A DNA stretch of 59,071 nucleotides from the NCBI GenBank assembly GCA_017456055.1, contig JAFTKC010000023.1:1-59071 (forward strand), read 5' to 3'. A program made the translations under genes and the position numbers. The notes beneath the pieces were generated by a model. It ran no database searches. It worked only from the letters and a program-made list of their open reading frames with translations, and was not told the DNA's origin. Source of the DNA: Clostridia bacterium (lineage in GTDB: Bacteria > Bacillota > Clostridia > Christensenellales > Borkfalkiaceae). Shown here in pieces: positions 7,931 through 19,939 of this stretch; position 1 is the stretch's first letter; each line of letters starts with the position of its first letter.

Positions 7931-8521
7931 ATGAAATTGATATTAGCGAGTAATTCGCCGAGAAGAAGGGAAATTTTAACTAAAATGGGGATAGAATTTA
8001 CCGTTTTGCCCTCCTTTTTCGATGAGAGTAAAGTGAAAGAAAAAAATAGTGAAGTGGCAGAGTTTTTTGCGATAAATAAAGCAAAGGACGTTTTTAATAG
8101 GCTAGAAGATAAAGAGGGCGTCGTTGTTCTAGGGGCTGACACCATAGTTTGTTTTGAAAACGAAGTTTTGGGTAAGCCTAAGGATAGGGAAGACGCAAAA
8201 AAAATGCTTAAGAGACTATCTGGCAACACGCATAAGGTAATAACCGGCTACGCATTTATTGGTGTTGGAGTAGAAATTAGTGGAAGCGAAGTGAGTGAAG
8301 TTATTTTTAACGATTTATCTGACGAATATATAGAAAAATACGTTGAAAACGCAAATCCCTTGGATAAAGCGGGAAGTTATGGTATTCAGGACGGCTATAA
8401 TTTGGTAAAAGAATATAGGGGAAGTTTTGACAATATCGTGGGGCTTCCGTCCGAAAAAATTGGCGAAGTTTTAAAAAAATTTTATAAATCGGTTGCCAAA
8501 ACGGATGGGTGTATGATATAA
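7931..8521 (+). CDS. maf: Maf-type nucleoside triphosphate pyrophosphatase
   Basis: 196-residue Maf/Ham1-fold enzyme that hydrolyses dTTP/UTP and some modified nucleotides. The N-terminal LASNSPRRREIL at residues 4-15, the GADTIVCFENEVLGKP block and the later DKAGSYGIQ block, with its catalytic aspartate, are all present. The start directly follows yolD (1 bp gap), so the two are probably cotranscribed. Its final codons overlap the -10 box of the pyrimidine operon promoter. Confidence 0.92.
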   Translation: MKLILASNSPRRREILTKMGIEFTVLPSFFDESKVKEKNSEVAEFFAINKAKDVFNRLEDKEGVVVLGADTIVCFENEVLGKPKDREDAKKMLKRLSGNTHKVITGYAFIGVGVEISGSEVSEVIFNDLSDEYIEKYVENANPLDKAGSYGIQDGYNLVKEYRGSFDNIVGLPSEKIGEVLKKFYKSVAKTDGCMI

Positions 8522-8522
8522 T
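8493..8522 (+). promoter_or_regulatory. Promoter of the pyrimidine operon
   Basis: TTGCCA at 8493-8498, 18-bp spacer, TATAAT at 8517-8522, embedded in the last codons of maf. The predicted start is near 8529, giving a leader of about 185 nt before the permease gene. Confidence 0.6.
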
Positions 8523-8552
8523 AAGCAAGATAAGATTTTAGGAGAAAAAGAA

Positions 8553-8651
8553 ATGGCAAGTGGCATTTTGTTTGCAACTAAATCAAGCGTAAATATATCT
8601 AGCCGTCACTATCTTTTAAAGTCTAAGTGTTTAAAAAAATCGTTTTGTTAG
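8553..8651 (+). CDS. Candidate leader peptide of the pyr operon (32 aa)
   Basis: A short ORF, ATG at 8553 to TAG at 8649-8651, preceded by TTAGGAGA. It encodes a 32-residue peptide rich in Ser (7) and Lys (6) with no recognisable domain. The stop codon sits directly against the 5' arm of a terminator hairpin (8652-8671), so a ribosome finishing this ORF would cover the hairpin. This matches the geometry of the E. coli pyrBI and pyrE attenuators, where low UTP slows RNA polymerase, the ribosome catches up and the terminator cannot fold. The leader RNA has several U-rich stretches. The role is inferred from position; the peptide itself may be unimportant. Confidence 0.6.
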   Translation: MASGILFATKSSVNISSRHYLLKSKCLKKSFC

Positions 8652-8680
8652 GAGACCTATTTTTTGGTCTCTTTTTTTAT
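8652..8680 (+). terminator. Attenuator-type terminator in the pyr leader
   Basis: A 6-bp stem (GAGACC / GGTCTC, extendable by a G-U pair) with an 8-nt loop is followed by seven T residues. It lies between the pyr promoter and the uracil permease gene, so it must be overcome for operon expression. Confidence 0.82.
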
Positions 8681-8712
8681 AACAAAAGAAAAAGTTTTAA
8701 GGAGAGAAACAA

Positions 8713-10086
8713 ATGAGTAATTTAGTTTACGGCGTAAAGGACAAACCAGGTTTATTTAAAACTATAGTGTTTGCTTTACAACAAGTGCTTGCTATTTTAG
8801 CGGCAACGATCGTAGTTCCTGTTATTATTAACACGAACGAAGGTTTAAACGCAGCGGGAATTTTCGCAAACATGAGTCAATCTGCAGCCCTTTTAGGCGC
8901 AGGTGTAGGTACTATCGTGTACTTATTGTTCACTAAATTCAAAAGTCCTGTTTTCTTAGGCAGTTCTTTTGCATTTATCGGTTCAATGTGCGCGGCTTTC
9001 GCAGGTGCTGCAAGCGTATCAGTAGGTTATATCGGTTTAATAATCGGTGCAATCATGGCTGGTTTAGTTTACGTTGTAATTGCAATCGCAATTAAATTTG
9101 CAGGTGTTAATTGGATTAACAAGATTATGCCTGCGTCAGTTATTGGACCTACCGTTGCAGTTATCGGTTTATCGCTTTCTGGCAACGCAGTTGGCGATTT
9201 AACTAAGGGCGCTATAGCAACTTGCAATCCTTATATAGCACTTCTTTGTGGTTTAGTGACTTTAGCAACCGTTATCGTATGTTCAGTATACGGCAAGAAA
9301 ATGCTTAAGATTATACCTTTCATTATCGGTATCTTAGCAGGTTATGCAGTTGCTGCAATCTTTACTTTAATCGGCACTCTAGCAGAAGTTCCAGAACTTA
9401 TGGTTATTAACTTCAGTTTGTTTGAAAATATGCAATGGGTTCCGGAATTTACTTTTGTTGAAGCGTTCAAAGGCTTTAGTGATCTCGGTGACTTCGGCAC
9501 TTATCTTGCAACCCTAGCAGTTGCTTACGTTCCAGTTGCGTTCGTGGTATTCGCTGAACATTTAGCAGACCACAAGAACATTTCTTCAATTATCGACCAA
9601 GACTTAACCGTTGATCCAGGTTTACATAGAACTTTACTTGGTGACGGCGTTGGCTCAATGGTAGGAGCTTTCTTCGGTGGTTGCCCTAACACCACTTACG
9701 GCGAATCGGTTGGTTGCGTGGCAATCTCTGGAAACGCTTCAGTTGTGACTATTTTCACCGCTGCAATCATTTGTATTTTGGCTGCTTTCGTTGCTCCGTT
9801 CGTGACATTACTCGCAACAATTCCTGCTTGTGTAATGGGTGGCGTATGCTTCACGCTTTACGGATTTATCGCAGTATCAGGCTTAAAGATGATTCAAAAG
9901 GTAGACCTTAACGATAACAAGAACTTATTCACCGTATCAGTTATTTTAATCGCAGGTGTTGGTGGTTTAGTTCTAAATATTGGCAAAGTGACCTTAACGG
10001 CTGTTGCTTGCGCATTGATTTTAGGTATCCTAGCAAACCTTTTAGGTTCAATCAAGTGCAAGAAAGACCAAGAAGAAGATGAATAA
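8713..10086 (+). CDS. uraA: Uracil permease (NCS2 family)
   Basis: 457-residue polytopic membrane protein of the nucleobase-cation symporter 2 family, with about 12-14 hydrophobic segments. The family has a conserved Q/N-rich motif in the second half; the CPNTTYGES segment near residue 325 and the AEHLADHK segment near 278 match uracil transporters of the UraA/PyrP type. Its place as first structural gene of a pyrimidine operon, directly before upp, supports uracil as substrate rather than xanthine. A strong AAGGAGAG ribosome binding site precedes the ATG. Confidence 0.9.
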   Translation: MSNLVYGVKDKPGLFKTIVFALQQVLAILAATIVVPVIINTNEGLNAAGIFANMSQSAALLGAGVGTIVYLLFTKFKSPVFLGSSFAFIGSMCAAFAGAASVSVGYIGLIIGAIMAGLVYVVIAIAIKFAGVNWINKIMPASVIGPTVAVIGLSLSGNAVGDLTKGAIATCNPYIALLCGLVTLATVIVCSVYGKKMLKIIPFIIGILAGYAVAAIFTLIGTLAEVPELMVINFSLFENMQWVPEFTFVEAFKGFSDLGDFGTYLATLAVAYVPVAFVVFAEHLADHKNISSIIDQDLTVDPGLHRTLLGDGVGSMVGAFFGGCPNTTYGESVGCVAISGNASVVTIFTAAIICILAAFVAPFVTLLATIPACVMGGVCFTLYGFIAVSGLKMIQKVDLNDNKNLFTVSVILIAGVGGLVLNIGKVTLTAVACALILGILANLLGSIKCKKDQEEDE

Positions 10087-10103
10087 ATTTAATAATTAAG
10101 TTG

Positions 10104-10128
10104 AAGGGCGAATGAAGAATTCGCTCTT
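10104..10128 (+). terminator. Weak intercistronic hairpin between permease and upp
   Basis: A 10-bp stem (AAGGGCGAAT / ATTCGCTCTT, one G-U pair) with a 5-nt loop and only a short T tail. It may act as a leaky terminator or protect an mRNA end. Confidence 0.5.
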
Positions 10129-10154
10129 TAACTATAAAAAAGGGAAGAAGAAAA

Positions 10155-10793
10155 ATGAAAAATTATTCAAACGTTCATATTTTAGACCATCCACTTATTC
10201 GTCATAAGTTGGCAATAATTAGAGATAAAAACACCAATACCAAGCAATTTAGAGAAATCATTAGCGAAATTGCTACTTTAATTGCTTACGAAAGTTTTAA
10301 GGACGTTCCTACCCAAGAAGTTGAAGTAGAAACCCCACTTGAAGTGACCAAGCAAATCGTAGTAAAAGAAAACTCTATTGCAATCGTTCCAATTTTGAGA
10401 GCAGGCTTAGGAATGGTAGACGGAATTTTATCATTATTTCCAGCGGCAAAAGTAGGTCATATCGGTTTATATAGAAACGAAGAAACCTTAGAACCACAAG
10501 AATATTACTGCAAACTTCCAGTTGGTATTGACGAAAAGGTTGTAATGGTAGTTGACCCAATGCTCGCAACGGGTGGAAGTGCTTGCGACGCAATTAAAAT
10601 GCTTAAGAAAAAAGGTTGCACTCAAATTAAACTTATGTCAATCATCGCTGCTCCAGAAGGAGTAAAGAAGGTTGCAGAAACTCATCCAGACGTAGAAATT
10701 TACGTTTCTACCCTAGATAGATGTTTAAATGAAAACGGCTACATTTTACCTGGTCTTGGCGACGCAGGCGATAGAATATTTGGCACGAAATAA
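10155..10793 (+). CDS. upp: Uracil phosphoribosyltransferase
   Basis: 212-residue salvage enzyme that converts uracil and PRPP to UMP. The N-terminal DHPLIRHKL, the [11 protein letters not shown] block, the PRPP-binding loop [11 protein letters not shown] and the uracil-binding C-terminal [13 protein letters not shown] are all present. It follows the uracil permease by 68 bp, linking uptake to capture of uracil. A long perfect hairpin separates it from pyrC. Confidence 0.95.
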
Positions 10794-10827
10794 TTAATTA
10801 TCTCCCGACTTTTCGGGAGATAATTAA
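10794..10827 (+). other. Perfect 15-bp intercistronic stem-loop between upp and pyrC
   Basis: TTAATTATCTCCCGA (10794-10808) pairs without mismatch with 10813-10827 around a 4-nt loop. It is followed by A residues rather than a T run, so it is not a classic terminator. It may set differential stability of salvage and de novo parts of the transcript. Confidence 0.65.
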
Positions 10828-10843
10828 AAAATGAGAGAATAAT

Positions 10844-12046
10844 ATGGAAAAGGGCTTAGATAAGAACTTACAATCGTTAATAGAAGAGTATAAAAAAGGC
10901 AACGCTTTGTTTTTAGAGAGCGAAGAGTATATAATTATGCCTTCTTTTTGCGACGTACACGTTCATTTTAGAGAGCCTGGTTTTTCATATAAAGAAACAA
11001 TCTATTCGGGAAGTAGGGCATCGGCAAGGGGTGGATATACTGCCGTTTGCACCATGCCAAACTTAAATCCCGTTCCCGACAGTGTGGAAAATCTAAAACT
11101 TCAACTAGATATAATCGAAAAAGACGCAGTAATCGACGTTTATCCATACGCATCCATAACTAAGGGACAAAGGGGCGAAGAACTTTCCGATATGGAGGAG
11201 TTAAAAGATTTAGTTTGTGCTTTTTCGGACGACGGAAAGGGCGTTCAAACTGAAAATATGATAATAAGCGCAATGGAAAAAGCAAAGTCATTAGATAAGA
11301 TGATTGTTGCCCATTGTGAAGATAATTCGCTACTTTTCGGTGGGTATATTCATAAAGGGGAATATGCTAAAGCGCACGGGCATAGGGGGATATGTTCGGA
11401 GAGCGAATATAAACAAATAGAGAGAGATTTAGAACTAGCAAAAAGAATAGGTTGCAAATACCACGTTTGCCATATATCCACTAAAGAGAGTGTAGAAGTT
11501 ATAAGAAAGGCAAAAAAAGAGGGAGTTGACGTCACTTGTGAGACGGGGCCACACTACTTAATTTTAACGGATGCCGACTTAAAAGAAGACGGAAACTTTA
11601 AGATGAATCCCCCTCTTAGAAGTGAGCAAGATAAACTAGCACTGATTGAGGGGCTAAACGACGGCACTATAGATATGATAGCCACAGACCACGCGCCACA
11701 TAGCCAAGAAGAAAAAAGCAAAGGGCTAGAGAAGAGCGCGTTTGGAATAGTGGGAATAGAAACTTCCTTTCCACTTTTGTATACCTATCTAGTAGAGAAG
11801 AAGTTGACGAGCTTAGAAAATTTAATAGAGAAGATGAGTATAAATCCGAGAATACGCTTCGGCTTTAGATTAGATAAATTAGATTATACGATATTTAAAA
11901 AAGGAAATTACCAAATCTTATCGCAAGAATTTTTGTCAAAGGGCAAAAACACCCCGTTTGAAAAGACGAAAGTGGGGGCAAAATGCGTTCTTACGGTTAG
12001 AAGGGGAGAGATAGTTTATAAAGACAAGGAGATAGACAATGCCTAA
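10844..12046 (+). CDS. pyrC: Dihydroorotase
   Basis: 400-residue amidohydrolase that closes carbamoyl aspartate to dihydroorotate. The metal-binding CDVHVHFREPGF block (residues about 36-47) supplies HxH, HCED and CHIST give further ligands, and the last aspartate is in IATDHAPHS. It belongs to the class I (Bacillus-type) dihydroorotases and is a little shorter than the usual 420-430 residues at its N-terminus. The end overlaps carB by 8 bp. Confidence 0.93.
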   Translation: MEKGLDKNLQSLIEEYKKGNALFLESEEYIIMPSFCDVHVHFREPGFSYKETIYSGSRASARGGYTAVCTMPNLNPVPDSVENLKLQLDIIEKDAVIDVYPYASITKGQRGEELSDMEELKDLVCAFSDDGKGVQTENMIISAMEKAKSLDKMIVAHCEDNSLLFGGYIHKGEYAKAHGHRGICSESEYKQIERDLELAKRIGCKYHVCHISTKESVEVIRKAKKEGVDVTCETGPHYLILTDADLKEDGNFKMNPPLRSEQDKLALIEGLNDGTIDMIATDHAPHSQEEKSKGLEKSAFGIVGIETSFPLLYTYLVEKKLTSLENLIEKMSINPRIRFGFRLDKLDYTIFKKGNYQILSQEFLSKGKNTPFEKTKVGAKCVLTVRRGEIVYKDKEIDNA

Positions 12047-15000
12047 GAGAACAGACTTAAAAAGAATAATGATAATCGGCTCAGGTCCAATAGTAATAGG
12101 ACAAGCAGCGGAATTCGACTATGCGGGAACTCAAGCCTGCTTGTCGCTTAAAGAAGAGGGATACGAAGTAATTTTAGTTAACTCAAACCCTGCGACTATA
12201 ATGACTGACACTGCTATTGCAGATAAGGTTTATATGGAGCCACTTACCTTAGAATACGTTGCGAGAATACTTCGCTACGAAAGACCTAACGCAATAATTC
12301 CGGGAATCGGTGGACAAACGGGACTAAACCTAGCAATGCAACTAGAACAAAAAGGCATATTAAAAGAGTGCCAAGTTGAACTTCTAGGAACTAGTAAAAA
12401 ATCTATTGAAGAGGCTGAGGATAGAGAACTATTCAAAAATCTCTGTACTAGAATAGGCGAGCCGACAATTCCATCGGAAATTACTTATGATTTAGAGCAA
12501 GCAAAAGAGGCTGCTAAAAGAATCGGCTATCCAGTAGTGTTGCGACCTGCGTTCACTTTAGGTGGAACGGGCGGCGGCTTTGCGTACGACGAAAAGCAAC
12601 TTGAAGAAATCGGCATTAACGCATTTAAACTTTCTCCCGTACATCAAGTTTTAATTGAAAAGAGCGTTAGGGGATATAAGGAAATCGAGTTTGAAATGAT
12701 GCGTGACGGAAGCGATAACGTCATCACCATTTGCGGTATGGAAAATATCGATCCAGTTGGCGTTCACACGGGCGACTCTGCCGTTGTTGCACCTATTTTA
12801 AGTCTTAACGAAAAAGACTATAAAATGCTTAACGATAGCGCCGTTAAACTTATTAAAGCACTAGAAATCGAGGGTGGTTGCAACGTTCAATTCGCTCTTT
12901 CTCCAGATAGTTCTGAGTACTATTTAATAGAAGTAAACCCAAGAGTTTCAAGGTCGTCTGCGTTAGCAAGTAAAGCGAGTGGATATCCTATCGCTAAAGT
13001 GACTGCTAAAATTGCAGTTGGTATGACTTTAGACGAAATTAAAATTGCAAACACTACGGCAAATTTTGCGCCAAGACTTGACTACGTGGTGGCAAAATTC
13101 CCAAGATTCCCATTTGATAAATTTACCAATGCTTCAAACGTTTTAGGAACTCAAATGAAGGCGACGGGCGAAGTAATGGGTATCGGTAGCACTCTAGAAG
13201 AGTGTATCTTAAAATCGGTTAGATCTCTTGAAATAGGCGTATGCCACTTGTATATGCCCAAATTTAGTAAACTCTCTACTGAAGAGATTTACGAATACAT
13301 TAAAGACTTTAGAGACGACGGCTTGTTTGCAGTGACCGAACTTATTCGTCGTGGAGAATCTATCGATAAACTCTATAAGGCAACTAAGATAACCAAACTC
13401 TTCCTAGAAAGTTTCAAAAGAATTACCGAAATGGAAGAAATTCTAAAAGAGAAGAAAGATTTAAAGACCTTAGAGTGTGCTAAAAAGTTAGGATTTTCGG
13501 ATAAATACATAGCAAAACTTTGGGACGTAAGCGAACTTGAAGTTTACGATATGAGAGTTAACAACAAGATATTCCCAAGTTATTTAATGGTAGACACTTG
13601 CCATACTAACGCTTATATTCCATATTTTTATTCGTCATATTACGGAAAAACTCAAGCAAAACTTGAAAATAAAAAGAAAATCGTTGTGTTAGGCGCAGGA
13701 CCTATCCGTATAGGTCAAGGCGTAGAGTTTGACTATTCAACCGTTCACGCCGTTCAAACCATCAAAAAAGCGGGCTACGAGGCAATTATAATCAACAACA
13801 ACCCAGAAACCGTTTCAACCGACTATACGACGGCTGATAAACTTTACTTCGAGCCTTTAACTCCAGAAGACGTTATGAATATTATTCACTTTGAAAAACC
13901 TGAAGGTGTTATAGCGTCGCTTGGTGGACAAACGGCAATCAACCTTGCTAAACCACTTATGGAAAGGGGAGTTAAAATTATCGGCACGGATTGTGATGCA
14001 ATCGACAGAGCAGAAGATAGAAAACAATTTGAAAAACTACTAGAAGATCTTGATATTCCACAACCAAGAGGTGAGGCTGTCACCAAGATTGAAGACGGCG
14101 TAAGGGCTGCCGAGGAAATCGGCTATCCCGTACTCGTTCGTCCAAGTTTCGTTTTAGGTGGTAGAGCAATGCAAATCGTTGCGAACGAAACGCAACTTCG
14201 CCACTACTTAAAAACTGCCGTTGAAGTAGACGAGGATAAGCCTGTATTAGTAGATAAATACATTATCGGTAAAGAGGTTGAAGTAGACGCTATTTGCGAC
14301 GGAAAGGACGTGTTTATTCCAGGTATTATGGAACTCGTTGAAAGAACGGGCGTTCACTCGGGCGACTCAATCAGCGTATATCCGTCGTTCAGTATTTCAA
14401 ACCAAGTAAAAGGCACTATACTTAGATATGCTAAAAAGTTAGGTCTAGGCATAGGAATCGTAGGACTCTATAATATTCAATTTATCGTTGATAAAGACGA
14501 TAACGTGTTCATCATTGAAGTAAACCCACGTTCTTCTAGAACCGTACCTTTCCTTTCAAAATCTACGGGATATAGCCTTGCAGACATTGCTACTGAAGTA
14601 ATACTCGGTAGAAGTCTAAAAGAGCAAGGAATATTTACTATGTACCCCGAAGAAAAGAAACGTTGGTACGTAAAAGTGCCGGTGTTCTCGTTTAATAAAA
14701 TAAGGGGATTAGACGCGTACTTGTCTCCTGAAATGAAATCTACGGGCGAAGCAATCGGCTACGACGATAAACTCTACAGAGCGTTATATAAGGCTCTACA
14801 AGCGTCGGGTATGAAGATTCAAAATTACGGCACGGTTTTCGTGACCGTGTGCGATAGAGATAAACTAGAAGTGTTGCCTTTAATTAGAAGATTTTATAAT
14901 CTCGGCTTTAATATTGAAGCGACGGCAGGAACGGCAAAATTCTTAAGAGCAAACGGAATAAGAACGAGAGAACTTAAGAAAATAAGCGAAGGGGCAGAAG

Positions 15001-15209
15001 AAATTTCTAACGCAATTCGTCAAGGACACATAGCGTACGTAATAAATACTAGCGACGTTGCAAACTTTGGACAAAGCAACGACGGCGTGACTATAAGAAG
15101 CCTTGCAACTGAAAACAATATAACTATGTTTACGTCTTTCGATACGGTTAAAGTACTACTCGACGTATTAGAAGAAACCACTCTAGGCGTTTCAACTATA
15201 GACGCTTAA
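12039..15209 (+). CDS. carB: Carbamoyl-phosphate synthase large subunit
   Basis: 1056-residue synthetase that makes carbamoyl phosphate from bicarbonate, ammonia and 2 ATP. It shows the two homologous halves: the first begins with IMIIGSGPIVIGQAAEFDYA, the second with VVLGAGPIRIGQGVEFDYS near residue 550. Each half has an ATP-grasp fold (EVNPRVSRSSALASKA and EVNPRSSRTVPFLSKS). The C-terminal MGS-like allosteric domain (from about 925) includes GTAKFLRANGI. The small glutaminase subunit carA, normally just upstream, is not in this operon or elsewhere in the window. It overlaps pyrC by 8 bp. Confidence 0.95.
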   Translation: MPKRTDLKRIMIIGSGPIVIGQAAEFDYAGTQACLSLKEEGYEVILVNSNPATIMTDTAIADKVYMEPLTLEYVARILRYERPNAIIPGIGGQTGLNLAMQLEQKGILKECQVELLGTSKKSIEEAEDRELFKNLCTRIGEPTIPSEITYDLEQAKEAAKRIGYPVVLRPAFTLGGTGGGFAYDEKQLEEIGINAFKLSPVHQVLIEKSVRGYKEIEFEMMRDGSDNVITICGMENIDPVGVHTGDSAVVAPILSLNEKDYKMLNDSAVKLIKALEIEGGCNVQFALSPDSSEYYLIEVNPRVSRSSALASKASGYPIAKVTAKIAVGMTLDEIKIANTTANFAPRLDYVVAKFPRFPFDKFTNASNVLGTQMKATGEVMGIGSTLEECILKSVRSLEIGVCHLYMPKFSKLSTEEIYEYIKDFRDDGLFAVTELIRRGESIDKLYKATKITKLFLESFKRITEMEEILKEKKDLKTLECAKKLGFSDKYIAKLWDVSELEVYDMRVNNKIFPSYLMVDTCHTNAYIPYFYSSYYGKTQAKLENKKKIVVLGAGPIRIGQGVEFDYSTVHAVQTIKKAGYEAIIINNNPETVSTDYTTADKLYFEPLTPEDVMNIIHFEKPEGVIASLGGQTAINLAKPLMERGVKIIGTDCDAIDRAEDRKQFEKLLEDLDIPQPRGEAVTKIEDGVRAAEEIGYPVLVRPSFVLGGRAMQIVANETQLRHYLKTAVEVDEDKPVLVDKYIIGKEVEVDAICDGKDVFIPGIMELVERTGVHSGDSISVYPSFSISNQVKGTILRYAKKLGLGIGIVGLYNIQFIVDKDDNVFIIEVNPRSSRTVPFLSKSTGYSLADIATEVILGRSLKEQGIFTMYPEEKKRWYVKVPVFSFNKIRGLDAYLSPEMKSTGEAIGYDDKLYRALYKALQASGMKIQNYGTVFVTVCDRDKLEVLPLIRRFYNLGFNIEATAGTAKFLRANGIRTRELKKISEGAEEISNAIRQGHIAYVINTSDVANFGQSNDGVTIRSLATENNITMFTSFDTVKVLLDVLEETTLGVSTIDA

Positions 15210-15232
15210 AATAATAGGGGCTAGGAGCATAA

Positions 15233-15961
15233 ATGAAGCAAGGATTTTTTGAAATAAAATCTAATAAGGGGCTAACTGCAGACGTTTTTGAAATGAAACT
15301 AGTAGGCGATACTAGTGCAATTACGGCGTCTGGTCAGTTTGTCAATATAAAGATTGACGGCGAATTTTTACGCCGTCCTATCTCAGTTTGCGACTATACT
15401 GAAAAAGAATTAACCCTAATTTATAAAGTGGTTGGCAGTGGCACGGAAAAACTTTCAAAAATGCAAGGTGGAAAACTCGATATTCTAACGGGGCTCGGCA
15501 ACGGCTACAACCTAGAAAAGAGTGGCGATAAGCCACTACTTATCGGTGGTGGGGTTGGAATTCCACCAATGTTTAACCTATGCAAGAAGTTAATTAAAAA
15601 AGGAAAAACTCCGTCAGTTATACTAGGTTTTAATACTAAAAGTGAAATTTTTTACCAAGAAGAATTTAATTCTCTCGGCGTTAACGTTTACGTTTCTACT
15701 GTAGACGGAAGTAGTGAAACTAAAGGGTTCGTCACCGACGTTATGAAAGATTTAGAATATACGTATTTCTATACTTGTGGTCCAATGCCAATGTTTTTAA
15801 GCATAGAAAAAATTGCAAAGACTAGTGGACAATATTCTTTTGAAGAGAGAATGGGTTGTGGTTTTGGTGCGTGCATGGGTTGCTCTTGCAAAACCAAATA
15901 CGGCAACAAGCGAATTTGCGTAGACGGACCGGTTTTAGAAAGGGAGGAGGTTATATGGTAG
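15233..15961 (+). CDS. pyrK: Dihydroorotate dehydrogenase B, electron transfer subunit
   Basis: 242-residue FAD and 2Fe-2S protein that passes electrons from PyrD to NAD+. The FAD-binding RRPISVCDY block is near residue 43, the NAD-binding [12 protein letters not shown] near 103, and the ferredoxin-like cluster [11 protein letters not shown] with a fourth cysteine in RICVDGP is at about residues 208-228. It overlaps pyrD by 7 bp, as expected for a class 1B heterotetramer. Confidence 0.94.
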
Positions 15962-16872
15962 ACACCAAGGTAGTATTATCGGGGCTAGAACTTGATAACC
16001 CAATTATCCCTGCGAGTGGAACTTTTGGTTTCGGCAAGGAATTTAAGGATTTTTACGATATAAATATTTTAGGAAGTTTTTCTTTTAAGGGAACTACCTT
16101 AGAAGAGAGATTCGGCAATCCTACCCCTAGAATTGCCCAAACACCAATGGGGATGCTCAACGCCGTAGGCTTGCAAAACCCTGGGGTAAAGCACGTGGTA
16201 GAGCATGAACTTCCCGAAATGAAGAAATATTTTCATAAAAAAGTAATAGCAAACGTAAGTGGTTTTTCTATTGACGAGTACGCAAAAACTTGTGAAATTT
16301 TAGACAAAGAAGAGCAAGTGGGCATACTAGAAGTCAATATAAGTTGCCCTAACGTTCACAACGGTGGCATGGCTTTTGGAACGGATGCTAAAAACGCTTT
16401 GGAAGTGACTAAAGCAGTAAAGAAAGTGACCACTAAGCCCGTATATATTAAACTATCGCCTAACGTGACGGACATAGTTTCTATTGCAAAAGCAGTAGAG
16501 GACGGCGGAGCAGACGGAATAAGTTTAATAAACACCCTTCTCGGCATGAGAATAAATTTAAAAAATAGAAAACCTATACTTGCAAATAAAACGGGTGGTT
16601 TTTCTGGAAGCGCAATTTTACCAGTGGCGTTAAGAATGGTTTACCAAGTGTACGAGGCGGTAAAAATTCCACTAATTGGTATGGGTGGAATAACTACGGC
16701 TGAAGACGTTATCGAAATGATGCTTGCAGGTGCAACGGCAGTTCAAGTAGGCGCAGCCAACTTAGTTAATCCGTACGCTTGTAAAGAGATAATCGAAGAT
16801 TTACCAAGAGTAATGGAAAAGTATAGAATAAATAGTTTAAAAGAGATTATAGGAGGAGCGCACAATGGCTAA
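15955..16872 (+). CDS. pyrD: Dihydroorotate dehydrogenase B, catalytic subunit
   Basis: 305-residue FMN enzyme that oxidises dihydroorotate to orotate. The N-terminal [13 protein letters not shown], the catalytic-Cys block [12 protein letters not shown] typical of class 1B, and the C-terminal [19 protein letters not shown] are present. The ATG at 15955 has GGGAGGAGG four bases upstream and is the family start; the longer upstream frame overlaps pyrK and is rejected. The end overlaps pyrF by 8 bp. Confidence 0.95.
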
Positions 16873-17563
16873 AGACGTTATAATTGCACTAGATTTTTCA
16901 AGCAAAGAACAAGTATTTGCTTTTTTAGATAACTTTAAGGATAGAAAGCCTTTCGTTAAAATAGGTATGGAATTATTCTATGCTGAAGGTCCTGAAATCG
17001 TAAAGGAAATAAAGAGAAGAGGACATAAAATCTTTTTAGACTTAAAACTTCACGATATTCCAAATACCGTTATGAAGGCAATGAAAGTTTTGTCTTCTCT
17101 CGACGTAGATATGACCAACCTTCACGCATCAGGCACTATTTCAATGATGGAAGGCGCTATTAAGGGGCTAACTAGAGAAGACGGAAGTAGACCAATTTTA
17201 ATAGCAGTCACCCAATTAACTTCAACCGACCAAACGGCAATGGAAAACGACCTTTTAATAAAAGAGCCAATAGATAAAGTTGTTATGCACTATGCTAGAA
17301 ATGCAAAAATTGCAGGGCTTGACGGAGTGGTGTGCTCACCACTAGAGGCAGGAAAGGTACACGAAACTTGTGGGCAAGATTTTATTACCGTCACACCAGG
17401 CGTAAGATTTGCAGATGGTGAAAAGGGCGACCAAAAGAGAGTTATGACTCCAAGCGAAGCGAGAAAAATAGGCTCTGATTATATCGTTGTTGGTAGACCT
17501 ATTACGGCTAGTGAAGATCCCGTTAAAGCATACAACAGATGTATTGAGGAGTTTTTAGGTTGA
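16865..17563 (+). CDS. pyrF: Orotidine 5'-phosphate decarboxylase
   Basis: 232-residue group 1 decarboxylase that converts OMP to UMP. The catalytic lysine-aspartate block [12 protein letters not shown] is at residues about 57-68, and the phosphate-binding VGRPITAS is near the C-terminus. It follows pyrD with overlapping codons and is followed by the HAD gene with a 4-bp TTGA overlap. Confidence 0.95.
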
Positions 17564-18210
17564 TAAAGAACATTTTCTTCGATTTAGACGGAACGCTAAA
17601 CGATTCTTCAATCGGCATAATTAAGGCAGTAAAATATGCGCTTAAAAACTTTGATATAGAGATAGAAGACAAAACGTTTTTAAGAAGATATATCGGTCCA
17701 CCCCTAGTAGATTGCTTTATGGAGTTTAATAATTTAAATAGAGAACAAGCGGAAAAAGCATTGTTTTTCTATAGGGAATATTATAACGTCGTAGGCAAGT
17801 TTGAAAACGCCGTTTACGACGGAATTAAACCTATGCTCAAGGATTTAAAGGAAAAGGGAATTAGGCTTTTCGTGGCGACTTCTAAGCCTGAAGACGTTAT
17901 GAACGATATAGTTTCGCACTTTGAGTTAAGAGAATATTTTGACGGCGTCTACGGCGCCTCTTTGGACTCAAAACGAAACAAAAAGACCATGGTTATAAAA
18001 TACGCCTTAGAAGAATCGAGAGTTAATCCTAGCGAAAGCGTAATGGTTGGAGACCATAAGCACGACGTTAACGGAGCAAAGGATAACGGCTTAAAAAGCG
18101 TAGCCGTCACCTACGGATACGGAGATCAAGAAGAATTAAAAAATAGCCAGCCTGATTATATGGTTGACACGGTAAAAGAATTAAGAGAATTACTATTTAG
18201 TTTAATATAA
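17560..18210 (+). CDS. HAD-superfamily phosphatase within the pyr operon
   Basis: 216-residue HAD subfamily IA hydrolase. Motif [12 protein letters not shown] is at residues 5-15, motif II VATSKP near 106, motif III Lys in SKRNKK, and motif [18 protein letters not shown] near 160. It resembles Gph/PpaX-type phosphoglycolate phosphatases, but HADs change substrate easily. A TTG start at 17560 is supported by GAGGAG about eight bases upstream and overlaps the pyrF stop. Its location between pyrF and pyrE suggests a role with a pyrimidine nucleotide or a damaged intermediate; this is inference only. Confidence 0.8.
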
Positions 18211-18221
18211 AGGAGAATCAA

Positions 18222-18866
18222 ATGAACGACGTACAAAGACTTATAGCAAAAGATTTATTATCAATAAAGGCGGTGTTTTTCCGTCCGGACGAGCCTTTTA
18301 CTTGGGCAAGTGGAATAAAGAGCCCTGTTTATTGTGACAATAGACTAACTCTCACCGCTCCAAAGGTAAGACTCGACGTAGAAACGAGTTTAGTTAAGAT
18401 CATAAAAGAAAATTATCCCGAAGTAGAAGTGTTGATGGGAACTTCAACTGCAGGTATTGCGCACGCAGCAATTTCTGCGCACATTATGGATTTACCAATG
18501 GGCTACGTTCGTTCGGGAGCAAAAGACCACGGCAGACAAAACCAAATTGAAGGTAAATTAGAAAAAGGTCAAAAGGTAGTAGTAGTTGAAGACCTTATTT
18601 CAACTGGTGGAAGCGTTATCGAAGTAGTTAACGTACTTAGAGAAGCAGGAGCAATCGTTTTAGGGGTAGTTAGTATATTCACCTACGGAATGAAAAAGGG
18701 AATAGTTAGACTAAGTGAAGCAGACGTAAAGAACGTAAGTCTAACCGACTTTGATTGTATCGCTGAAATTGCAGCGGAAGACGGCTACATTAAACCTGAA
18801 GACGTAAAGAAACTTTTAGCGTTTAGAGATAATCCGAGCGACGAGAGTTGGATAGGAGTAAAATAA
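18222..18866 (+). CDS. pyrE: Orotate phosphoribosyltransferase
   Basis: 214-residue enzyme that joins orotate and PRPP to OMP. The [16 protein letters not shown] block (residues about 26-41), the flexible-loop segment [15 protein letters not shown], and the PRPP loop [12 protein letters not shown] are characteristic. It ends in TAATG, sharing one base with the pyrB start. AAAGGAGAAT precedes the ATG. Confidence 0.95.
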
Positions 18867-19939
18867 TGAGACACTTAATAAACATTTTAGACTTTTCAAT
18901 CAAGGAAGTAGAAGAACTAATCGACTTAGCAGACGATATTATTGCAAATCCCGAAAAGTATAACGAAGCGTGTAAGCATAAGATTTTGGCTACGTTATTT
19001 TTCGAGCCGTCAACGAGAACGAGATTGAGTTTTGAATCGGCAATGTTATCGCTTGGTGGAACGACTTTAGGTTTTTCATCGGCTAGCAGTTCGTCTGCAT
19101 CAAAGGGTGAAAGCGTTGCTGACACTATTGCAGTAGTATCGGGATATTCGGATATTTTGGTTATGCGTCACCCTAAGGAAGGCGCTCCGTTCGTTGCGAG
19201 AAAGCACGCAAACGTTCCAATTATTAACGCAGGAGACGGCGGACATCACCACCCAACGCAGACCTTAACGGATATGCTAACCATTAAGCACGAAAAAGGA
19301 AGACTAAATAACCTAACTATCGGTCTATGTGGCGACTTAAAATACGGAAGAACAGTTCACTCTTTAATAGAAGCAATGTCGAGATATACGGGCATTAAAT
19401 TTTGCCTAATATCGCCCAAAGAACTTGCTCTTCCTGGATTTGTTAAAAAGAATTGTTTAGAAAAAGAGGGCGTTGAATATCAAGAATTTACCGATTTAGA
19501 AGAGGCAATGCCACAACTTGATATTCTATATATGACAAGAATTCAACAAGAACGTTTTATCGATAGAGACGAATATATTAGGCTAAAAGATTGTTATATT
19601 CTAACTAAAGAAAAGATGGAACTTGCTAAAGACGATATGTGCGTACTTCATCCATTGCCTAGGGTTAACGAAATTTCAGTTGACGTAGACGACGATAAGA
19701 GAGCCTGCTACTTTAAGCAAACTCTCTACGGAAAATATATGAGAATGGCGCTTATCCTTAAACTTTTATCGCTTAAAGACGAAAAGGAAAAGGACGACGG
19801 AAAGGAGATAGTATTGAGCGAAACTAAATGTTCAAATCCACATTGTATCACTACTATTGAACAAGAGATTAAGCCTTTAACCTACGTAGACGATCACGGA
19901 ACAACCCGTTGTGCATATTGCGATAAAATGATAAAGTAA
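18866..19939 (+). CDS. pyrB: Aspartate carbamoyltransferase fused to a PyrI-type zinc domain
   Basis: 357-residue protein. Residues 1 to about 305 are a complete ATCase catalytic chain, with the carbamoyl-phosphate loop [13 protein letters not shown] (45-57), the SSASKGES loop and HPTQTLTDM. After a charged linker, residues 322-357 form a small zinc motif with C322, C327, C349 and C352 (CxxxxC...CxxC), the same spacing class as the zinc domain of the regulatory chain PyrI. The nucleotide-binding allosteric domain of PyrI is missing. The ATG at 18866 has AGGAG upstream and overlaps the pyrE stop; a TTG at 18848 is less likely. The zinc domain may keep the PyrB contact function of PyrI without CTP/ATP control (inference). 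Confidence 0.9.

Follow-up and report, generated by a model that had tools for sequence, protein, structure and literature searches.

Pyrimidine genes of Bacillota are usually assigned to PyrR, and PyrR attenuators terminate transcription when pyrimidines abound. The window, the whole stretch of 59,071 nucleotides from a Clostridia bacterium analysed here, has an intrinsic terminator between a promoter and its first pyrimidine gene, uraA (ATG at 8713). The question raised by this locus is what decides whether polymerase passes that terminator. Occlusion of the terminator by a ribosome translating a short leader ORF is the likeliest mechanism, and one that we hold with good confidence. Taking occlusion and signal jointly, the leader is probably a ribosome-coupled transcription attenuator that senses pyrimidine nucleotide supply. 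The parts of the locus are as follows.

8493–8522, + strand: promoter TTGCCA-18-TATAAT with extended TG, an 11/12 match; −35 TTGCCA at 8493–8498, spacer of 18 nt, −10 TATAAT at 8517–8522 with TG preceding it
8534–8545, + strand: 5′ arm GATTTTAGGAGA of a predicted helix, which includes the leader Shine-Dalgarno sequence (SD); found in the MFE and centroid folds, SD pairing probability 1.0
8540–8544, + strand: leader SD, AGGAG
8553–8651, + strand: leader ORF of 32 codons, MASGILFATKSSVNISSRHYLLKSKCLKKSFC plus TAG, from the sequence and a shuffle test; ATG at 8553–8555, TAG at 8649–8651
8612–8623, + strand: segment TCTTTTAAAGTC, candidate anti-SD arm and pause region, from the folds
8650–8678, + strand: intrinsic terminator, AGGAGACC, 8-nt loop, GGTCTCTT and T run, starting on the ORF stop; core GAGACC at 8652–8657 with GGTCTC at 8666–8671, seven T at 8672–8678
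8700–8704, + strand: uraA SD, AGGAG
8713–10086, + strand: uraA, NCS2-type uracil permease (TIGR00801, 268.2 bits, and NF007995, 269.9 bits, below the model cut-offs of 291.8 and 477)
10155–10793, + strand: upp, uracil phosphoribosyltransferase (TIGR01091, over cut-off)
10844–19939, + strand: pyrC, carB, pyrK, pyrD, pyrF, a HAD-like ORF, pyrE and pyrB, the de novo genes, in the same orientation as uraA-upp

The initial annotation had described a promoter, a good SD, a 32-codon ORF whose TAG is flush with a terminator, and then the permease gene, and all of these parts are located. The promoter lies within the last codons of a maf-like gene that ends at 8521. It is the top-quality site among 20 promoter-like sites in 8000–17000; shuffled sequence gives 20.4, so the assignment rests on quality and place and not on count. 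The first two bases of the extended stem AGGAGACC are the final two of the TAG. This arrangement is rare by chance. In the shuffle test, dinucleotides are kept, the terminator is fixed, each leader is shuffled 400 times, and a hit is any ATG-initiated, SD-preceded ORF of 20 codons or more that ends between −6 and +18 of the stem start. Only 1 of 400 shuffles of the window leader (0.25%) yields such an SD-led ORF ending on the stem.

The same layout is found in relatives. UraA was searched in 61 genomes, namely its own, 36 of the same genus and 24 of the same order. A UraA match occurs in 28 of the 37 same-genus genomes, and the uraA start lies within the assembly in 26; left out are G014, with a C-terminal fragment of uraA only, and G036, whose match is a paralogue (30% identical). 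Of these 26, 24 have a terminator and an ATG-initiated ORF whose stop falls on or inside the terminator stem. In the two others, G003 and G028, a promoter-like box adjoins uraA, with neither ORF nor hairpin after the box; the terminator of G003 is upstream of its box. No same-genus leader has the hairpin without the ORF between promoter and uraA, the combination that the initial annotation had held against its own reading. The 24 leaders and L070, a goat cecum locus of the named collection that carries no genus label, make a set of 25, in which terminators of relatives were scored with a relaxed stem rule for AT-rich stems. Counted from the stem start, the stop codon ends at +2 in 13 of the 25 and at −6 to +1 in seven; in the remaining five it ends within the hairpin, at +10 to +18. 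ORF length ranges from 22 to 41 codons among relatives, and the peptides agree, by eye, in short stretches within subgroups only. The initial annotation had expected ORF length and stop-to-hairpin distance to be kept while the peptide drifts: the position of the stop is indeed kept and the peptide drifts, but the length varies. On its own checks, that interpretation is largely supported. The best −10-like box picked by script is 25–30 nt before the leader ATG in 15 of 25, with a varying pick in the other ten. By rule, an SD of at least four bases is present in 21 leaders; L004, L014, L019 and L024 fail the rule, and in the last three G-rich stretches precede a usable ATG.

Over the set, 21 of 25 leaders have an SD-led ORF that ends on the stem (−6 to +18), with 0.16 expected, and the narrower end range of −6 to +4 gives 17 observed and 0.07 expected. 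When 972,281 bases were scanned on both strands for the full layout plus a −10 box, all 12 matches were uraA leaders. These bases comprise the window and 59 loci picked around pyrimidine genes, not whole genomes, and the strict scan rule recovers, by coordinates, 11 of the 19 same-genus leaders in the scanned loci, together with G038. The leader layout is real and selected. Since the leaders are related, the p values given in this work are optimistic. A DNA similarity search with the leader itself was dropped for anchoring on UraA protein, as it gave almost no correctly placed matches in relatives: besides the window, only the match in G025 lies in a uraA leader, and nine other places are elsewhere by coordinates.

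The layout reaches a little beyond the genus. In L032 (G038), from another family of the same order, the ORF likewise ends on the stem. Among 80 named uraA loci, L117 (51 nt upstream) was set aside, and L054, L056 and L058 are, judged by length and place, identical with the contigs of G031, G003 and G029. One of the 75 remaining named loci, L085, has the layout; this is a lower bound, as the scan rule used there misses AT-rich stems and missed four of the 25 known leaders (L004, L019, L020 and L070). L085 is recorded as uncultured Ruminococcus sp. isolate RUG14179; its leader ORF, of 32 codons, lies about 176–77 bases before uraA. Its ORF ends in the terminator loop, with a pyrimidine fraction of 0.82 in the last 60 nt and an SD pairing of 0.88, and it is possibly an independent case.

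PyrR would be the expected regulator for such genes. The initial annotation had seen neither a pyrR gene nor a PyrR-type hairpin, and the wider search agrees: pyrR was not found in the window's own genome (93.7% complete), where the two best matches to the PyrR model, whose cut-off is 138 bits, score 29.6 and 21.6 bits. The match of 29.6 bits is the hypoxanthine phosphoribosyltransferase, and the other looks like a xanthine phosphoribosyltransferase. The PyrR-site motif of the genus, with at most three mismatches, has no match in this genome (G000), a weak negative in that the pattern misses 9 of the 17 PyrR-positive genomes of the genus. An Rfam search of the leader gives no family at gathering score, and up to E 10 over 8400–8712 no bacterial leader family and no PyrR family; what it brings up within that limit is weak and eukaryotic, far under cut-off. 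At gathering score Rfam also missed the PyrR-type leaders of relatives (ten loci), a caution on its silence here. L134, L135, L137, L144, L145 and L153 are PyrR-type leaders clear by eye that have no Rfam match at gathering score.

Elsewhere in the genus PyrR is present. pyrR scores over cut-off in 17 of the 37 same-genus genomes and in 15 of the 24 others of the order, and the PyrR-site consensus (at most three mismatches) occurs in nine same-genus genomes, always before pyrR or pyrC by position; one of the nine, G010 (69% complete), has no pyrR match. The 24 leader-bearing genomes divide into 8 with pyrR and 16 without. In the eight, a GGTACAGAGAGACCGRCAAGG-like motif, which we take to be the shape of a PyrR site, is found in the leaders of pyrR or pyrC (for G017, by consensus match and coordinates). 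The "PyrR-free switch" of the initial annotation is thus apt for the window species but does not describe a genus-wide replacement, PyrR standing alongside in 8 of 24. G031 has the order pyrR-pyrC-...-pyrB-leader-uraA-upp, while the window has leader-uraA-upp-pyrC-...-pyrB and no pyrR. The leader is therefore a salvage-operon device, placed here before de novo genes. It had been described as the leader of the pyrimidine operon; by gene order it does precede the de novo genes, but it belongs to the salvage unit uraA-upp.

The gap between upp and pyrC is 50 bases. It holds a perfect hairpin of 15 pairs (10794–10827) without a T run on the + strand; read-through to pyrB is therefore plausible, and a single transcript from uraA through pyrB may be envisaged. 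As pyrR was not found and uraA-upp is upstream of pyrC-pyrB, the salvage leader probably commands de novo synthesis in the window species. Five other PyrR-less leader genomes (G002, G005, G006, G013 and G025) keep pyrD apart from uraA, so the joining of salvage and de novo genes is seen in the window species only. Ten of the 16 PyrR-less leader genomes, some of them incomplete assemblies, are without a good pyrD match and for this reason may live on salvage alone. Upstream of pyrC in G005 (85% complete) and G013 (70% complete), in both of which pyrR was not found, L175 and L178 have leaders with a short hairpin and T run and no evident ORF or PyrR motif, perhaps yet another control.

Taken as a set, the leader ORFs are rich in U and C toward their 3′ ends. 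The T fraction rises from 0.30 in the earlier part of the ORF to 0.42 in its last 60 nt, and this final stretch is also richer in T than the uraA coding region of the locus that it comes from (24 loci, L194 left out; Wilcoxon p 5e-5). The window leader itself is moderately U-rich, with T of 0.40, a value reached by 17% of uraA windows, and its pyrimidine fraction of 0.53 against 0.54 shows no excess; in seven of the 24 leaders, T is no more than 0.03 above the mean of their own uraA. The most pyrimidine-rich 24-mer, for example TACTTCTCTTTCTCTTTCCCCTTT in L031 and TCTTTTTCTCTTTTTTCGGATATT in L026, has its end 16–49 bases short of the ORF end in 21 of 25. Codon choice follows the same direction for serine (TCT/TCC in 49 of 85, background 36%) and arginine (CGT/CGC in 16 of 19, background 36%), while leucine runs opposite (CTT/CTC in 26 of 77 against 47%, p 0.03). 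Given the amino acids, tail codons hold 892 pyrimidines where 850 are expected (p 0.0014), above expectation in 20 of the 24 leaders compared (L070 left out). Because codon choice leans to pyrimidines in this way, it points to selection on the bases rather than on the peptide.

Individual words within the tract are less uniform. TTNTTT, which we take to be a pause motif, is not clearly enriched: it is found in 19 of 25 leaders where 14.9 are expected, with 30 occurrences against 26.7. CTTT(T)AAA occurs in 13 of 25 ORFs, with 1.9 expected, and overlaps the anti-SD segment in several. In this subgroup TTA-AAN is in frame in 17 of 18 copies, and there may be some selection on the peptide there. 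A conserved LK/LN peptide motif was ranked second, as K and N alternate at the same bases, with the in-frame copies as the counterpoint. The TTTAAA-N9-TTTAAA at 8615–8635, inside the leader ORF, was tried as a protein operator and rejected; besides the leader the genome has one further site, and a reversed control matched more.

The tract has a predicted partner in the SD. In the window leader, folding pairs the SD with TCTTTTAAAGTC in the ORF. For the 21 leaders whose SD satisfies the rule (the other four were left out), the SD pairing probability averages 0.86; for 157 ordinary genes, drawn from 11 genus loci and the window, it is 0.53 (p 1.5e-8). The partner is located 43–90 bases into the leader ORF. 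Compared with shuffled ORFs, the excess is smaller, 0.80 against 0.69 over all 25 leaders (p 0.01). U/C-rich sequence pairs with any SD, and exchanging tracts between leaders weakens the pairing with the SD very little (p 0.037 by permutation, 0.13 and 0.35 by Wilcoxon tests), a marginal outcome for the test of SD-tract co-evolution. The 5′ arm of the terminator, on average, pairs with the ORF more weakly than in shuffles (p 0.02, 25 leaders), and a trp-type antiterminator switch is therefore unlikely; L030 and L025, with fairly good antiterminator-like pairing (reached by 4% and 10% of shuffles), are possible exceptions. An outer stem TCGTTTT/AAAACGA around the terminator, striking by eye in L003, L006, L009, L010, L011 and L030, was rejected at p 0.13 over the 25.

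From these features we infer leader translation, polymerase pausing and UTP as the signal, and the switch might work in the following way. Polymerase would leave the promoter and transcribe the leader, SD included, as far as the middle of the ORF. With UTP (perhaps also CTP) plentiful, it would cross the U/C tract at once, and the tract would fold onto the SD. With the SD sealed, no ribosome would load, the terminator would form, and uraA-upp and the pyr genes would be off. With UTP short, polymerase would pause in the tract before the SD is sealed, and a ribosome could load. This ribosome would follow to the stop and cover the 5′ arm of the terminator, letting polymerase enter uraA-upp and the de novo genes. 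The most tentative element, which we put forward at less than even chances, is the double role of the U/C tract as nucleotide sensor and anti-SD gate, in which a paused polymerase would delay the SD-sealing strand so that low UTP favours ribosome loading. If true, such a gate would make ribosome-coupled attenuation workable where polymerase outruns ribosomes. A portion of PMC13323073 describes transcription in B. subtilis and other species as outpacing the ribosomes, and this goes against the proposed coupling.

Other readings of the same leader have to be weighed. The ORF might be translated and sense nothing specific, read-through being constant or linked to growth rate. Only layout and composition are conserved, which fits this reading, as does the general effect of translation on stop-proximal terminators; in E. 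coli, an excerpt of PMC4824070 reports, a terminator a few bases past a stop codon is nearly silenced by translation. It is nevertheless unlikely, given that the layout is on uraA alone (12 of 12 matches in the 972 kb of loci around pyrimidine genes) and that the synonymous pyrimidine enrichment would be left without a reason. That enrichment also bears on a leader peptide sensing serine or leucine, where codon-specific stalling of the ribosome would decide termination. All 25 leaders have two or more serines among their final 20 codons, the same holds for leucine in 22 of them, and a few leaders have SSS. But no single-residue run is common to the leaders, no general pairing competes with the terminator, and a uracil permease would be an odd target; with serine skewed to TCT/TCC and arginine to CGT/CGC, bases and not residues seem to be kept. 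We regard amino acid sensing as improbable.

A metabolite riboswitch or a protein-bound leader, whose closed form hides the SD and whose ORF is incidental, would account for the window leader folding better than its shuffles (z −3.3 with the terminator, −2.1 without). The enclosed sequence, however, varies among relatives by eye and the ORF is kept, and no Rfam match, pyrR gene or PyrR-site match was found in the searches above, which makes this reading quite improbable. We give the least credit of all, very little indeed, to Rho, rather than the hairpin, ending untranslated leaders, with the U/C tract as a Rho target shielded by ribosomes. The genome does have a Rho homologue (475.7 bits, cut-off 509.45), and the Rho of B. 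subtilis has a preference for RNA rich in C and T (PMC13323073, in part). Against it, the hairpin and T run are kept in 24 of the 26 same-genus genomes and the ORF stop tracks the hairpin. The leader has only about 120 nt before the stem, which is short for Rho action. Ribosome-coupled attenuation on pyrimidine supply is thus the reading that we prefer.

Several known systems resemble ribosome-coupled attenuation as proposed here. PyrR attenuators of Bacillota share the pathway and the logic of termination under abundant pyrimidines, but they need PyrR and its RNA site, neither of which was found in this genome by the searches above, and those of relatives are on pyrR or pyrC. In the E. coli pyrE attenuator, translation stops just before the terminator and the translated frame is the upstream gene rph, whereas here the ORF is a dedicated leader ORF. 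E. coli pyrL is alike in having a leader ORF near the promoter, a U-rich tract, an intrinsic terminator and a pyrimidine operon. It differs in that its frame runs 29 nt past the hairpin; of the 25 present leaders, 20 have the stop at the hairpin foot. The present host, too, is clostridial, uraA-upp comes first in the present target, and no sequence relation is shown. The initial annotation had likened the locus to the geometry of pyrBI and pyrE. The meeting of ORF and terminator stands; pyrL departs from it in that its frame reads through the terminator and does not end at it. In pyrL, too, folding predicts an SD paired with the U-rich tract, at the CTTCCCG segment; the pairing probability is 0.999, a value that 1.3% of 300 shuffles attain (one sequence). 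The candidate gate, if true, would add an element to this textbook attenuator, its SD being predicted as paired with the pause tract. The mechanism of the pyrBI leader pyrL, attenuation that senses UTP, is taken from a portion of PMC10135430.

Leader-peptide attenuation has also been described in Gram-positive bacteria. For B. subtilis tlrB (yxjB), an extract of PMC6851288 describes a polymerase pause that buys time for leader translation and a ribosome near the stop that blocks the terminator. Leader peptide, pause and stop-proximal ribosome would be common to both systems; in tlrB, going by the same extract, tylosin provides the signal through its action on the ribosome, and there is a defined arrest motif. 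The histidine leader peptides of bacilli are likewise Firmicutes attenuators, and as far as the partial source goes they differ in having a stretch of His codons and an amino acid as signal. In 2010, a passage of PMC2965389 stated that no leader-peptide attenuation was known outside Proteobacteria and Actinobacteria, except ermC. No ribosome-coupled pyrimidine attenuator in Bacillota appears, among the matches listed, in open-licence titles and abstract openings, a scope outside which subscription papers mostly fall. The present leader would place pyrBI-like ribosome-coupled nucleotide sensing in Clostridia. It would also mean two regulators in one genus, with PyrR-type leaders on synthesis and a ribosome-type leader on salvage, and in the window species synthesis seems to have come under the salvage leader.

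Some features of the de novo genes are of separate note. carB lies at 12039–15209, and carA has 0 matches in the genome (controls 14/14). Among the 37 same-genus genomes, carA scores over cut-off only in G002, G012, G016, G025 and G026, and several members of the genus that have the pathway seem to have a carbamoyl phosphate synthase without the glutaminase subunit. The C-terminal segment of PyrB (18866–19939), a zinc site, resembles the end of PyrI, the regulatory subunit, of which the rest is absent; residues 316–356 match NF002063, below the model cut-off. The ORF at 17560–18210, between pyrF and pyrE, reads as a HAD-like phosphatase.
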